DNA of 64,000 nucleotides, taken from contig JAPLKB010000064.1 of assembly GCA_026388275.1 (NCBI GenBank), positions 57,038 to 121,037 on the forward strand, in the 5' to 3' direction. The notes under the pieces were generated by a model. It was given only the letters and a program-made list of their open reading frames with translations, made no database searches and was not told the DNA's origin. Of this stretch, positions 31,044-63,694 are shown one piece after another (positions within the stretch are counted from its first letter, which is position 1; each line of letters opens with the position of its first letter). The position numbers and the translations under genes were made by a program. This stretch comes from Pseudomonadota bacterium (GTDB taxonomy: Bacteria > Desulfobacterota > Syntrophorhabdia > Syntrophorhabdales > Syntrophorhabdaceae).

Positions 31044-32138
31044 TTATGAAATAGTCTCCTTTATTGCCTTGCAGGCATAATAGATATCATCAGCCGAATT
31101 CAACGTGGAACAGGGCAGGCATAAACCTTTTTCATATATTTCATCAGAGTTTTTCAAGGAAATTTCATCTCCGGCAATATATGGCGGGAAACCGGTAATA
31201 GGCATAAAAACCCTTCGAACAGGCACGTTTTTCTTTTTTAATAAATCCATTAAGGAATTAAAATCAATCTTTTTCTCAATTGTTATGCAGGTAAACCAGA
31301 ATGAACTTTCGGCACACTCATATGACTCCTGAAAACGGACAAAATCAAGTTTACCCAATTCCTCACGGTATATATCGTTGTACATCTTCTTCTTTGCAAG
31401 GAATTCGCCGAGCCTCTCCATCTGAGCCAGCCCCATAGCTGCTTCAAGATTCGTCATTCTATAATTGAACCCTATCTCCGGGTGGTAGTAACCCCTCGAT
31501 TCATCACGAGCCTGATTTACAAGAAATTTGATGTGCTCCATGCGCTTTTCATCATTTCCCACAACCATGCCGCCGCCGCCTGTGGTAATAGTCTTATTGC
31601 CATTAAAGCTTAAACAGCCAAGATCTCCTGCATTCCCCATATATTGGCCTTTGTATTTAGCGCCAAGGCTCTCTGTTGCATCCTCTATTACAAAAAGCCC
31701 GTATTTTTCGGCTATCTCCATTATCTCATCCATTTTACAAGGGTTTCCATAAAGATGGACAGGAATAATTGCCTTTGTCCTCGGCGATATGCAGCGTTCA
31801 ATTTCAGCAGGACTAATATTCCAGGTTTTTATATCCACATCGGCAAAGATAGGTTTTGCATTTACGTAAACAATCGGATTCACCGTAGCAACAAAGGTAA
31901 GGGCTGGAACAATAACCTCGTCCCCCTCTTTTATTCCCAATTCATATAAAGCTACGTGAAGAGCAGCGGTTCCACTCTGAGTCGACACTGCCCTTTTAGC
32001 ACCAAGATATATGGCAATTTCATCTTCAAATTGCGGGACAAAAGGACCGAAGGTAGAGACAAAGTTCGAATCTATGACCTTTTCAATATATGCCTTTTCA
32101 ATTGCACCCAGATTTGGTGCATCAAGCTCTATCTTCAC
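31044..32138 (-). CDS. legC: Sugar aminotransferase, LegC/DegT family
   Basis: A GTG at 32138, preceded by AGGAG five bases upstream, gives 364 residues starting (M)KIELDAPNLGAIEKAYIEKV, the normal family N-terminus. A longer form from an ATG at 32183 would overlap the upstream gene by 62 bases and lacks a site, so it was rejected. PLP features are TQSGTAALHVAL, VIVPALTFVATVNPI, FVIEDATESLGAKYKGQ and the internal lysine in LSFNGNKTITTGGGG. DegT enzymes aminate the 4-keto-6-deoxy sugar. It is the only DegT-type aminotransferase in the window. Confidence 0.88.
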   Translation of the reverse strand: MKIELDAPNLGAIEKAYIEKVIDSNFVSTFGPFVPQFEDEIAIYLGAKRAVSTQSGTAALHVALYELGIKEGDEVIVPALTFVATVNPIVYVNAKPIFADVDIKTWNISPAEIERCISPRTKAIIPVHLYGNPCKMDEIMEIAEKYGLFVIEDATESLGAKYKGQYMGNAGDLGCLSFNGNKTITTGGGGMVVGNDEKRMEHIKFLVNQARDESRGYYHPEIGFNYRMTNLEAAMGLAQMERLGEFLAKKKMYNDIYREELGKLDFVRFQESYECAESSFWFTCITIEKKIDFNSLMDLLKKKNVPVRRVFMPITGFPPYIAGDEISLKNSDEIYEKGLCLPCSTLNSADDIYYACKAIKETIS

Positions 32139-52292: not shown

Positions 52293-53544
52293 ATTTCACC
52301 TTCACTGAGTTTAGATCTTCAAAGAACGAAGGGTAGGATTTGGAAACACATGCCGGCCCCTCTATGACAACATCCACTTCCCTTGCAATGGCAGCAATTG
52401 CGCATGCCATTGCAATTCTGTGGTCATTATGGGAATCCACAGTACCGCCTCTGGTAATACCACCATTGATTTCCATCCTGTCTTCAAAAACTTTTATTTC
52501 AATCCCAAGCTTGGAAAATTCCTCAACCAGGGCAATGGCACGGCTGCTCTCCTTATGTTTGAGACGCTCCACCCCGTAGATGACACTTTTGCCTGTGCAA
52601 CCGGCTCCAAGGGCAACAAGGGGTGGGAACAAATCGGGACAATCACGTGCATCAAACTCAAAAGCATTCAATCTATCTTTTGTGACAAGAATATAGTCAT
52701 CTTTTGCCTTTACCTGTGCACCGGCATTGATAATAGCCTTTATCACAGCTTTATCGGCCTGATATGAAGCAGGATTCAAGCCCCTTACCTTTATAGAACC
52801 AGCAAGTGCACCGGCCACAAGAAAAAAAGCAGCACCGGACCAATCTCCTTCTGTGACATACGTAGAGGATTTGTATTGTTGGTCACCTCGAATATAAAAT
52901 TCCTCAAGGTTTTTGTCATGGAGAACCTTCACGCCGAATCTGCCCATTATATCAATTGTCAACTCAATATAGGGCTTGCTTTTTAGCCCGGTAACCACAA
53001 TGTGTGAATCGCCGCTGCATAAAGGAAGCGCCATAAGTAAGCCTGTCAGGAATTGTGAGCTTTCAGCGCCGCTTATGTTGATCCTGCCTCCATTGATCCT
53101 GCCTTTCACCATGACAGGCGCAAAACCTGCTTCTGTACGGCATGTTGCACCAAGATCCGTTAATGCTTCAACCATCTTCATAGGTCTATTGATCAATGAG
53201 CCGGAGGCCTTCAGAATAATCTCTTCTTCAAGCAATCCTGTAACAGGGGTAAACATCCTCATGCAGAGCCCGGATTCTCCACAATCGAGAACATTGCTCT
53301 TTATGCCTCTTTCCTTCAAACTATCATTACCCTTGATCGTAACGCTTTTGTCTCCCCTGTATATTTCAGCCCCCAGCGTATCTGCTATGGCAAGGGCAGT
53401 CAAACCGTCGCTGCAAAAAGATGGGTTTACTATTTCAGATGTGCCTGAAGCCAGCAAAGCTGCAGCAACAACTCTGATCATTACGCTTTTTGATGCCGGT
53501 GCGTCGATTGTCGCATCAATCTTTGAGGAACTTATTGATTTCAC
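52285..53544 (-). CDS. aroA: EPSP synthase
   Basis: 419 residues. The PEP-binding lysine region DAPASKSVMIRVVAAALLASG, the L-x-C-G-E-S-G-L-C-M-R-M block (NVLDCGESGLCMRMFTPV) and VTEGDWSGAAFFLVAGAL are visible. The C-terminal NDHRIAMACAIAAI is conserved. The residues of the class I or II glyphosate-sensitivity loop were not assigned. It overlaps the aroEK fusion gene by 29 bases. Confidence 0.94.
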   Translation of the reverse strand: MKSISSSKIDATIDAPASKSVMIRVVAAALLASGTSEIVNPSFCSDGLTALAIADTLGAEIYRGDKSVTIKGNDSLKERGIKSNVLDCGESGLCMRMFTPVTGLLEEEIILKASGSLINRPMKMVEALTDLGATCRTEAGFAPVMVKGRINGGRINISGAESSQFLTGLLMALPLCSGDSHIVVTGLKSKPYIELTIDIMGRFGVKVLHDKNLEEFYIRGDQQYKSSTYVTEGDWSGAAFFLVAGALAGSIKVRGLNPASYQADKAVIKAIINAGAQVKAKDDYILVTKDRLNAFEFDARDCPDLFPPLVALGAGCTGKSVIYGVERLKHKESSRAIALVEEFSKLGIEIKVFEDRMEINGGITRGGTVDSHNDHRIAMACAIAAIAREVDVVIEGPACVSKSYPSFFEDLNSVKVKYE

Positions 53545-54871
53545 TATATACCTTCCTTATAATCTCCTCAGGTTCCATACCATCCGTAATTACAACCATA
53601 TCGGAGGTTTCTGCATAAAAAGGCATCCTTTCATCAAGCATCTCTTGAATGTGGATTTTTTCACGCATGTTGCGAAGCAGCGGACGTCTATTGTCATTGC
53701 CTGCACGTTTCAGAACAGTGTCGGCGTTTGCCCATAGCCATATGACGATAGAGTTTTTCCTGAGTATATTCCTGTTTGCCCTGTTAAGTATTGCCCCGCC
53801 TCCGCATGATACTATTGTTCCCGACAGATTCCCGATGCTTGCTATTTCATCACTCTCCATCTGCCTGAATGCCTGTTCTCCCTTGTTTTCAAAGATCTCG
53901 CTTATCGATATTCCTGCTTTCTGCTCAATCACCGTATCGATGTCTATAAATGGCATTGCCGTCAGTTCTGCCATACCACGGGCCGCCGTTGATTTACCGG
54001 CGCCCATAAAACCTATAAAGGCAATGTTTTTCCCGATAGACTTGTTTTGCCCGTATAAAGCCTGCCGCATGAACTCCATCGGAGGCTCTGTGCCTGTGAA
54101 AAGCCTGAAGGCGGCCACGCCCTGAAAAAGCAGCCATTCCCTGCCGTCAATAATTGTACATCCCTGCCTTTTACCGTCCTCCACAAGGGCAGTGGGTTTA
54201 CTGTAGTTAGCATCAAGGATTGCCATATTTTTCTTAAGGGAATCAGGTTTAACAATCCTTTCCGCTGAAGGCAGACATGAAATAAGGATATCTGTAAATT
54301 TCAGTGCTTTATTCATATCTTCCATTTTTGCGACTTTGCATCCCATATCTTCAGAAATAGCCTTTGCCTTTTCAAAGGTACGATTCACGATTATTACATC
54401 CGCCCCTTCTGAGATAAGGGCACATACGACTGCTTTAGCTGCTCCGCCCGCACCAAGCACAAGCACCCTCTTCCCTTCAACTTCCACACCATTAAAAGAA
54501 AGGGCATCTTTTACACCTTTAATATCCGTATTGAATCCATGAAGTCTGCCATCCTTTACAAGTATTGTGTTAACAGCACCTACTCTCTGTGCCGCTTCCT
54601 CTGTATTCTCCAGAAAGGGCATGATCTCTTCCTTAAAAGGTGATGTCACGTTAAAACCGGAAAGCCCTATATCCGATATTCCAGCCATTATGTCTTTGGC
54701 ACGCGATGCTGCAAAACGGGTATATACTGCGTCTATCGACATCAAACCAAAGGCAGTGTTAAAGATATCCGGGCTTTTGCTGTGCAGTACAGGATTACCG
54801 ACAACGGCAAAAATCTTTGTTTTTTCTGAATTGTTTGTTTGATTGGTCTTATTAGGTCGTATACGACTCAT
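53516..54871 (-). CDS. aroEK: Shikimate dehydrogenase-shikimate kinase fusion
   Basis: 451 residues. Residues ~18-275 are AroE: FAVVGNPVLHSKSPDIFN, the catalytic Lys in FNVTSPFKEEIM, RVGAVNTILV, GFNTDIKGV and the NADP motif VLVLGAGGAAKAVVCALI. Residues ~283-451 are AroK: the P-loop GFMGAGKST (Lys293), FIDIDTVIEQKAGISISEIFENKGEQAFRQMES, SCGGGAIL and the LID region NRRPLL. Two successive but non-adjacent-substrate steps (3-dehydroshikimate to shikimate to shikimate 3-phosphate) are joined in one chain. It lies 18 bases after aroD. Confidence 0.95.
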   Translation of the reverse strand: MSRIRPNKTNQTNNSEKTKIFAVVGNPVLHSKSPDIFNTAFGLMSIDAVYTRFAASRAKDIMAGISDIGLSGFNVTSPFKEEIMPFLENTEEAAQRVGAVNTILVKDGRLHGFNTDIKGVKDALSFNGVEVEGKRVLVLGAGGAAKAVVCALISEGADVIIVNRTFEKAKAISEDMGCKVAKMEDMNKALKFTDILISCLPSAERIVKPDSLKKNMAILDANYSKPTALVEDGKRQGCTIIDGREWLLFQGVAAFRLFTGTEPPMEFMRQALYGQNKSIGKNIAFIGFMGAGKSTAARGMAELTAMPFIDIDTVIEQKAGISISEIFENKGEQAFRQMESDEIASIGNLSGTIVSCGGGAILNRANRNILRKNSIVIWLWANADTVLKRAGNDNRRPLLRNMREKIHIQEMLDERMPFYAETSDMVVITDGMEPEEIIRKVYSEINKFLKD

Positions 54872-59167: not shown

Positions 59168-59359
59168 TTATTGCTTGTTTCCAATACCGCCTTTTCTCCT
59201 CGATACCAGTTGTGGATCTACATTCCCCGGCCCTCCACAATCAGGTGTGTAACAGGTTACATCGAGAAAAGTGCAAGTTTCTTTGCATGAAGGACATTGA
59301 TCAAGAGGCGTATCCGCCGCAAAAGTATATCCGCATTTCTCACATTGCCATTGTGTCAT
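59168..59359 (-). CDS. Rubredoxin-like iron protein
   Basis: From the ATG at 59359, nine bases after GAGGAG, 63 residues. Two Cys pairs (WQCEKCGYTF and QCPSCKETC) match the rubredoxin iron site. A further Cys pair follows (CYTPDC). Such proteins carry electrons in oxidative-stress defence of anaerobes. The position just downstream of the Sec-MsrA gene suggests a common redox role, which is inference. Confidence 0.85.
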   Translation of the reverse strand: MTQWQCEKCGYTFAADTPLDQCPSCKETCTFLDVTCYTPDCGGPGNVDPQLVSRRKGGIGNKQ

Positions 59360-59410
59360 TTTAATCATCTCCTCGTAATTAATTCGTACTTACCCACAAA
59401 TACAGTACAA

Positions 59411-60244
59411 TCAGTAACGCCGCTGTCCATTTAAAAAAGCAATAAGTTTTTTAACAGTTTCAGGCCGCAATCCCGTTTCCGATAAATCTTTTTCGAGATC
59501 TGAGTTTTTCCCATAACCGCCGAGATACCCATTGATGCGCGCTGCAGCGGTAGATGCCACAAAATCTTCATCAGTCCGATAGATTTCCTTAAACAGATGC
59601 ATCAACTCCTTGTTGTTCCTGAGATAATATTTCTGATGGTAATCCTCGGCAGGGTAAAATCTATTCTCCGGTACAATTTCCGTATATATTGTTTGTTTCA
59701 GTTTCTCTTCAAGCCTGGCCTTGGTTTCAAAGGCAAGCCTTTTCTGCTCTTCATTACGGTAAAAAATAACCGACTTGTACTGCTTTGACCAGGATCGCGA
59801 AAAAGCATCATGGTTACTCCAGAAGATATCCAGAAGTTGCTCATAAGAAACCTTTCCGGGATCATAATAGATGCGGATCGTCTCGGTATGGTCTCCAAGG
59901 CTTTGGTAGGATGGATTTATCTTAGTTCCTCCAGTATAACCTACTTGCGTTTTGACAATACCTCTTATATGCCCGAACCGGGCATCAGGACCCCAGAATC
60001 AGCCCATGCCGAAGGATGCTATCTCCTGGCCTACAGGTGACGGTGTTTGTTCATTAAGAGGTGTAGAATTTTGTGCAGCGCCAGATATTTCCGTTGTCAT
60101 ATCTTTGTTCTCCTTTCCTGTGTTTGCACAATTCTTTTCCGTTTTCGATAAACCGCAGGCAACAAGGAGGAAAAGCCCGCAAACAATTGCTATAGTCCTT
60201 GTGATTAATATTCTATTTTTATAAATATGAAAAAAGAAGATCAT
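59411..60244 (-). CDS. msrA: Selenocysteine-containing peptide methionine sulfoxide reductase MsrA
   Basis: The frame is open from 60244 to 59411 except for one TGA at 59999-60001. Read through, the TGA falls exactly on the catalytic residue: SFGMG-U-FWGPDARFG, where MsrA has GCFWG. Downstream are VGYTGG, HTETIRIYYDP, FWSNHDAF, and the signature FYPAEDYHQKYYL. No Cys follows, so resolving Cys are absent, as in other Sec-MsrA. A SECIS-like hairpin starts 13 bases after the TGA. The N-terminus (RTIAIVCGLFLLVACG) is a lipoprotein signal with lipobox LVAC. A second ATG at 60100 has AAGGAG nine bases upstream and would give a cytosolic 229-residue form. Confidence 0.88.
59969..60001 (-). promoter_or_regulatory. 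Sec codon and bacterial SECIS-like hairpin
   Basis: On the minus strand UGA (59999-60001) is followed after 13 bases by AUGCCCG-GUU-CGGGCAU (59969-59985), a perfect 7-bp stem. The apical GGUUC begins 19 bases after UGA, close to the 18-base spacing in E. coli fdhF. A CCU/AGG lower stem is possible beyond an internal loop. Confidence 0.75.
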
Positions 60245-60250
60245 GGAATC

Positions 60251-60278
60251 AGTATAAGCACATTTTTCATCGAGTCAA
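60251..60278 (-). promoter_or_regulatory. Candidate promoter of msrA
   Basis: TTGACT (60273-60278) and TATACT (60251-60256) are 16 bases apart. Transcription would start at or very near 60244, the first base of the upstream ATG, so the lipoprotein form would be translated from an almost leaderless mRNA. Confidence 0.6.
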
Positions 60279-63067: not shown

Positions 63068-63694
63068 CTATTTATTGAACCGTCTCAACGCCATGAGAGA
63101 AAAGAGGCCTGAACCCAGGAGTGCCATAGGCCCCGGTATAGGGACGGCTGTTGGCGAGACGTCAATTGCTGTAAGAAAGTAACCTCTTGCATCATCCCAT
63201 CTTGTATTTGCTCGTCCCGAGAATGCAATAGTCGAGGATGACCCGGTAGCTAATACAGTATATATGTACTCGGTCCAACCAAGTTGAACAGCTTCCGTTA
63301 TATCCAGCACAGGGGTTTCATTCCAATACGCCTTGAGGCTACCCGGGGAATAGTTGTTGTTGAGATCATAGGGCTGTGCCAACCAAAAGCTGAAAGAGTA
63401 TGATTTACCGGCAACCGTCTGAATAGTCTGCCCTATAGAGTCGCTATCGGGTCCGGGACCAGCAAAGACTGCCTGATACATGCTTGGGCCGGGGATACCA
63501 CCAATATAATAATTTGACCCATGACCGGCATCCGTTCTGCTCCACCCGTCCCATGATGGGGCTATAATCTCCGTTCCATCCGACCCGTACATGATAGTTT
63601 GGAAATTCCCATTGGTTACCAGATTGGCACAAGCAATCCCACCTGTGATTACGCACAGGGTAACGAAAAACAAAATAGTCAGTAGTCGTTTCAT
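63068..63694 (-). CDS. PEP-CTERM-type exported protein
   Basis: 208 residues. Residues 1-23 are a signal peptide (KRLLTILFFVTLCVITGGIACA), then NLVTNGNF, the start of a beta-sandwich domain of the DUF642/CBM type. The C-terminus has the sorting signal VPIPGPMALLGSGLFSLMALRR: a proline motif, a hydrophobic helix and a basic end. Such proteins are processed by exosortase and displayed on EPS-producing cells. This fits the EPS-type MarR regulator in the window. An exosortase gene is not in view. Confidence 0.87.
   Translation of the reverse strand: MKRLLTILFFVTLCVITGGIACANLVTNGNFQTIMYGSDGTEIIAPSWDGWSRTDAGHGSNYYIGGIPGPSMYQAVFAGPGPDSDSIGQTIQTVAGKSYSFSFWLAQPYDLNNNYSPGSLKAYWNETPVLDITEAVQLGWTEYIYTVLATGSSSTIAFSGRANTRWDDARGYFLTAIDVSPTAVPIPGPMALLGSGLFSLMALRRFNK

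Follow-up and report, generated by a model that had tools for sequence, protein, structure and literature searches.

The window analysed here, a stretch of 64,000 nucleotides from a Syntrophorhabdaceae genome (contig JAPLKB010000064.1), contains a gene for the methionine-S-sulfoxide reductase MsrA, with selenocysteine (Sec) predicted as its catalytic residue. The gene appears to carry two starts in one frame and likely yields both an envelope-anchored lipoprotein and a cytoplasmic enzyme. Its frame runs intact through a UGA that is followed by a covarying hairpin, the genome has a complete Sec machinery, and a leader with a lipobox precedes an internal ATG with a Shine-Dalgarno (SD) sequence at Met49. 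Sec-containing MsrA (Sec-MsrA) is itself established, and bacterial cases have been on record since 2006 according to the accessible portions of PMC1794560 and PMC13188914. New here is the two-start layout, which, judging from sequence, recurs in distant relatives. In titles and the openings of abstracts, with subscription papers outside the scope, we found no report of two starts in Sec-MsrA or of two starts as a conserved trait. The gene and its in-frame UGA are placed as follows:

59411..60244, minus strand: msrA, predicted Sec-containing methionine-S-sulfoxide reductase, long form of 277 residues, with its TGA stop at 59413-59411

59999..60001, minus strand: UGA in frame on catalytic residue 82 (GUFWG), also present in the same-genus genome G201

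Read with TGA as Sec, 60244-59411 has a single internal UGA (residue 82, nucleotides 60001-59999, context MGUFWGPDARF) and terminates at a second TGA of the same frame. Under translation table 11 the frame falls apart into open reading frames (ORFs), one at 60244-59999 (81 aa) and one at 59605-59411 (64 aa). The full product matches Pfam PMSR (PF01625) at 2.1e-44 (151.9 bits, cut-off 23.7), with the GxFWG active site present, and TIGR00401 at 130.1 bits (cut-off 108.1). Cysteines occur only at residues 22, 30 (lipobox LVAC) and 39, with none in residues 83-277. The enzyme has no resolving Cys C-terminal to Sec82 and has a C-terminal helical domain, as in the 1-Cys type represented by CoMsrA, the selenoprotein MsrA of Clostridium (Alkaliphilus) oremlandii (PDB 4lwj, 4u66). 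A sequence-only reading of this DNA had proposed an MsrA frame intact on both sides of a TGA at the catalytic Cys site, no other Cys in the catalytic domain, and a gene that automatic calling would split; all three points are borne out, on the minus strand, and its interpretation as a Sec-containing MsrA is supported.

That the frame ends at the TGA under table 11 is also what a true stop would give, in a pseudogene or through a sequencing error. We regard this as highly improbable. The TGA is retained in a separate genome of the same genus (70% protein identity), and in-frame TGA occurs in 27 of 27 MsrA matches at E <=1e-40 across 395 genomes of the phylum (window included; 26 with one, one with two), a threshold that favours the UGA clade, since Cys-type copies are weaker (1e-33 to 1e-40) and hence left out. 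Past the TGA, nonsynonymous divergence (dN) from the congener is well under synonymous divergence (dS), and over the enzyme part of the two congeners dN is 0.13 and dS 0.55; hairpin covariation and the Sec machinery, both described below, point the same way. The window's genome (3.5 Mb, 99.5% complete) has a single MsrA match, and its best matches for selA (583 bits), selB (366), selD (370) and tRNA-Sec (72) are all above cut-off. Thus neither objection foreseen in the sequence-only reading, a genome lacking Sec machinery or a TGA created by assembly error, stands. The selD gene (G000 C38:36875-37789; L011) has an in-frame TGA itself.

Reading the TGA as tryptophan through an altered genetic code is the least credible alternative. 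Trp occupies the catalytic site (GWFW) in 14 of the 120 listed public protein homologues (P0007, P0009, P0010 and 11 more), as a caller using TGA for Trp would give, and 31 of the 120 lack the GxFW motif and begin after its position. Both kinds of entry fit gene callers tripped by the UGA, and the GWFW entries are apparently an annotation trap in which TGA was read as Trp. Against an altered code, msrA itself terminates on TGA, the full Sec pathway is present, and in established MsrA chemistry Trp cannot act as the catalytic nucleophile.

The UGA is widespread among relatives. Within the family (39 genomes), 20 matches reach 1e-30; the TGA is present in 14, and the six weaker ones are Cys-type. 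Among named-genome loci, the best 80 of 558 relatives comprise 59 with UGA and 21 with Cys, and the record titles include Nitrospirota, Desulfobacterota, Planctomycetota, Bacillota, Chloroflexota, Actinomycetota and others; one locus (L124, two TGA, motif unplaced) is excluded from all UGA-locus counts. selA is above cut-off in 28 of the 31 searched UGA-MsrA genomes versus 5 of 18 Cys-MsrA genomes (50 loci given to the search, L034 left out). The three UGA-MsrA genomes below that level have one partial selA at a contig edge, one partial selA and none, respectively. Plasmid and phage collections (1084 and 21 records) gave MsrA matches only at <60% identity.

The Sec reading is further supported by a putative bacterial Sec insertion sequence (bSECIS):

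59969..59985, minus strand: bSECIS-like hairpin AUGCCCG-GUU-CGGGCAU, 13 nt 3' of the UGA, indicated by position, synonymous recoding and covariation

The hairpin with a GGUUC loop that had been noted at a SECIS-like distance is found at 59985-59969, with a 7-bp stem (AUGCCCG/CGGGCAU) and 20 nt between the UGA and the GUU loop (19 nt if the loop is taken as GGUUC). These values fall within the bSECIS model as given in the accessible text of PMC13188914 (loop of 3-9 nt with G in the first two positions, stem of 4-16 bp, 16-37 nt from the UGA). Since the folding energy of the whole segment is ordinary, position-specific synonymous tests were used. In the window alone, the hairpin score is matched by 1.9% of 1000 synonymous recodings. 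Across 81 non-redundant homologues (clusters at 70% identity) the evidence is strong: the loop of the best-scoring hairpin lies 19-20 nt from the UGA in 67 of 81 clusters, and the five loop-site bases are GGTTC in 44, AGTTT in 20, AGTTC in 13 and other in 4. UGA loci score 16.5 versus 11.7 +/- 0.46 for synonymous recodings, whereas 27 Cys loci show no excess (10.9 versus 10.3 +/- 0.7). The Phe codon tracks the opposite base, being TTC in 44 of 44 cases after CGG, and TTT in 19 and TTC in 11 after CAG. For 80 of the 81 sequences (L035, with an apparent frameshift, excluded), covariation is 0.262 versus 0.132 +/- 0.012 when shuffled and 0.143 at the maximum when slid; the numbers of cells paired and of cells changed on both sides are above all 500 shuffles. 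Some of the stem changes also alter residues.

Upstream of the enzyme, the frame continues into a putative export leader:

60155..60244, minus strand: N-terminal leader with a hydrophobic stretch and lipobox LVAC, residues 1-30, supported by frame-specific hydrophobicity in homologues

60251..60278, minus strand: promoter-like TTGACT-16-TATACT, a consensus match that predicts a transcript start at or adjoining the long-form ATG

Lipoprotein signal sequences have a charged start, a hydrophobic stretch and a lipobox of the form [LVI][ASTVI][GAS]C. All three are seen in the window's leader (TIAIVCGLFLLVAC), which ends at Cys30; the congener's lipobox is LAAC, and VCGxFLLxAC is common to the two. 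Among 78 non-redundant loci (3 of 81 dropped for too little upstream sequence), 49 have a hydrophobic open leader in frame. In frame +1 there is 1 and in frame +2 there are 0, and because the hydrophobic open segment is nearly confined to frame 0 we take the leaders to be coding. A lipobox-like motif occurs in 19 of the 49 leader loci. An SD precedes the long-form start in 36 of them, versus 22.4 +/- 3.2 in codon shuffles (maximum 32 in 500), and 26 have an SD at both the long and the internal start. The promoter-like match ends 6 nt 5' of the long-form ATG, and in the congener TTGACT and TATAAT occupy the corresponding position; promoter matches across the region are not above chance (7 versus 4.9 +/- 2.0), and the weight lies with the congener match alone. 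We guess that the transcript starts at the long-form AUG, giving a leaderless message for the long form in this genus. An alternative is that the cell makes no long form, just the short cytoplasmic one, and that the leader frame belongs to the 5' untranslated region. It would accord with the lack of an SD at the window's long start and with a transcript start at the long ATG, where leaderless translation is uncertain. We consider it quite improbable, given the confinement of the hydrophobic frame, the lipobox-like motifs, the excess of SDs before the long start and the retention of VCGxFLLxAC between congeners. Six loci of Sec-MsrA relatives (L110, L111, L123, L130-L132) have twin-arginine-like leaders (RRSFMK, RRSFVK, RRSFLK), which we take to suggest twin-arginine export of a selenoprotein. 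At L104, the GTG that starts the long form is overlapped by a frame of 9 codons lying upstream (ATGAAAAATAAGATG...TAA), an arrangement that looks like coupling.

A second start lies in frame behind the leader:

60110..60115, minus strand: Shine-Dalgarno AAGGAG, 9 nt 5' of the internal ATG, in a block GGAGAACAA-GATATGACA common to congener L103

60098..60100, minus strand: internal start ATG (Met49), 33 codons ahead of the UGA, predicted to begin a short leaderless form of 229 residues, supported by its excess over shuffles

An in-frame ATG occurs in the linker of 38 of the 49 leader loci, and 37 have it with an SD match of at least 4 (SD-ATG), versus 11.3 +/- 2.8 in codon shuffles within each linker, which never gave more than 19 in 1000. 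With an SD of at least 5 the count is 25 versus 3.3 +/- 1.7, and the two other frames together hold 8 SD-ATGs. This non-redundant test supersedes an earlier two-start count on a redundant set (39 of 52 versus 12.0 +/- 2.6). In 16 of the 37 loci the ATG lies exactly 33 codons before the UGA, the commonest position. The SD is found in each of the three codon registers, and the residues that spell it differ between loci, which points to selection acting on the RNA. Among 36 other leader-bearing ORFs, drawn from the named-genome loci and the window, an SD-ATG follows within the next 42 codons in 1 (shuffles 2.7 +/- 1.4).

With the linker shuffles alone, roughly one locus in four (11.3 of 49) has an SD-ATG, as might be expected if the gene encoded a plain exported Sec-MsrA, made as the long lipoprotein only, with the internal SD-ATG a by-product of a hydrophilic, Lys/Glu-rich linker. 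That explanation is unlikely in view of the 37 observed loci against shuffles that preserve codon content, the single case among 36 other leader ORFs, and the recurrent 33-codon spacing with SDs in three registers. Because a second SD-led start lies in frame behind the leader, export is probably not the sole fate of the enzyme. The lipoprotein-type leader described in the sequence-only reading therefore stands as genuine coding sequence, but taking the protein as exported only tells half the story. By our own threshold, and without a shuffle control, an SD-ATG also precedes the enzyme in 21 of 28 leaderless loci (4 truncated loci excluded; several of the 28, among them L044, L061, L110 and L123, resemble weak leaders). 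For this reason the internal start may be the original N-terminus of the family, retained when a leader was added upstream of it.

Several observations weigh against a Sec-MsrA with two starts. The overall folding energy at the hairpin is ordinary (z -0.39; 63 of 200 shuffles equally stable) and Rfam returned no family at gathering score over the window, so that the case for the hairpin is one of position and conservation. Individually, its score reaches p <=0.05 in just 26 of 81 loci, and the two outermost stem pairs form in just 36 and 34 of 80 sequences. Two of the five pair measures, the count of pairs with changes on both sides and that of further pair types, stay within the range of shuffles (as high in 482 and 459 of 500), and since the homologues are related, the loci are not independent events and relatedness inflates the covariation tests. 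As to the starts, leader constraint between the two congeners is moderate (dN 0.28, dS 0.48), and the internal SD-ATG is missing in 12 of 49 leader loci. The set of 36 control ORFs is small, and the hit lists are ranked by similarity to a leader-bearing query. Because the window's long-form ATG has no SD (a 3-nt match), its use here depends on the guess of a leaderless transcript.

As far as these sequences indicate, the layout is not bound to selenium, because loci of MsrB and MsrAB show the same layout above shuffles. In the genome's only MsrB (G000 C19:3071-3685, minus strand; loci L144 and L147), a hydrophobic leader opens with TTG behind GGAGG, and AGGAGG precedes an internal ATG. The MsrB of the congener shares this internal start, and its leader contains a Cys. 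Among 30 MsrB/MsrAB loci of the phylum, taken from a total of 167 matching genomes, a leader is present in 26 and an internal SD-ATG in 21, versus 8.1 +/- 2.2 in shuffles (maximum 15). The signal in Cys-type MsrA relatives is weaker than in the UGA set (3 of 12 leader loci versus 0.8 +/- 0.8, shuffle maximum 4).

Ribosomes that start at 60244 would produce a pre-lipoprotein destined for export and for lipidation at Cys30, and those that start at Met49 would make a Cys-free form of 229 residues that stays inside, with Sec82 as its sole chalcogen nucleophile. Residues 29-69 have a predicted local distance difference test score (pLDDT) below 50, and because this linker, which holds Met49, is modelled as disordered, both forms would keep the whole enzyme. 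By analogy with the C. oremlandii enzyme, Sec82 would take the oxygen from Met-S-sulfoxide. As the short form has no Cys, Sec82 would have to be reset from outside by an external thiol, which in the cytoplasm is probably glutaredoxin on the same analogy.

CoMsrA has 209 residues with Sec at position 16, is reset by glutaredoxin and forms dimers on substrate, according to the accessible part of PMC4479559. Its Sec16 leaves no room for a leader, in contrast to the window's enzyme, which lies behind both a leader with a lipobox and an SD-led internal start, and its Tyr48 and Arg88 correspond to Q114 and K154 here. In the available text of PMC1794560 (table 3), an MsrA selenoprotein is listed for Syntrophobacter fumaroxidans, likewise a bacterial Sec-MsrA of a deltaproteobacterium. 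An internal AUG in Neisseria meningitidis PilB is reported to give a truncated cytoplasmic Msr form on expression in E. coli (PMC6210582, in part), and the truncated form was not seen in later work on N. gonorrhoeae (PMC6372556, in part). The window's gene resembles PilB in its predicted exported full form and cytoplasmic form from an internal AUG, with an in-frame SD-led start (Met49, AAGGAG) after an export leader. Unlike PilB, which combines Cys enzymes with a thioredoxin-like domain at the N-terminus and with a fused MsrB, it encodes a lone Sec-MsrA with a short leader, and it does not belong to the PilB family proper, since a Pfam scan gives only PMSR and helical-domain matches. HBP35 of Porphyromonas gingivalis, an exported protein of the thioredoxin type from a family unrelated to MsrA, likewise has internal starts that yield forms lacking the leader (PMC2907840, portions available).

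Directly downstream of msrA lies a possible operon partner:

59168..59368, minus strand: rubredoxin-like small protein of 66 aa (PF21349, 31.1 bits)

The congener L103 keeps this neighbour downstream of msrA at 84% identity. Apart from a rubredoxin-like match at L117, located on the opposite side of msrA, none of the other loci has one, so we do not claim the protein as the MsrA reductant. MsrB accounts for 12 of 53 scanned same-strand ORFs flanking msrA loci (from 60 ORFs of at least 70 aa, with 68 in all), and the 25 flanking-ORF families listed, of a total of 41, include no thioredoxin, glutaredoxin or DsbD family. The window's genome has two glutaredoxin-like genes. One glutaredoxin-like gene (G000 C61 near 31060-31245; L145) is close to an ORF that resembles the catalytic chain of ferredoxin:thioredoxin reductase with a rubredoxin end, a candidate electron path to Sec-MsrA. 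Elsewhere in the window, 53516-54871 (minus strand) encodes a fusion of shikimate dehydrogenase and shikimate kinase (aroE-aroK), whose nearest names among the matches listed are 'Proteobacteria bacterium' (70%) and Syntrophorhabdus (about 50%), and 63068-63694 (minus strand) encodes an exported-looking protein with what we take to be a PEP-CTERM-like tail (PGPMALLGSGLFSLMALRR).

Because the genome has one MsrA and one MsrB, the latter with the same layout, each gene would serve both compartments. We lean towards the broader view that the exported Msrs of many phyla, selenoenzymes above all, are two-start genes, in which a ribosome site in the linker gives a cytoplasmic twin from the same message and one Sec-MsrA gene and one MsrB gene serve both compartments; in this genus, the long-form transcript may begin at its own AUG. 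If the second start is conserved, databases misplace these proteins twice, by cutting them at the UGA and by calling them exported only or cytoplasmic only. If true, the two-start layout would place a cysteine-free selenoenzyme in the cytoplasm and its lipidated twin outside, and would provide a simple, recurrent route by which one bacterial gene serves two compartments.
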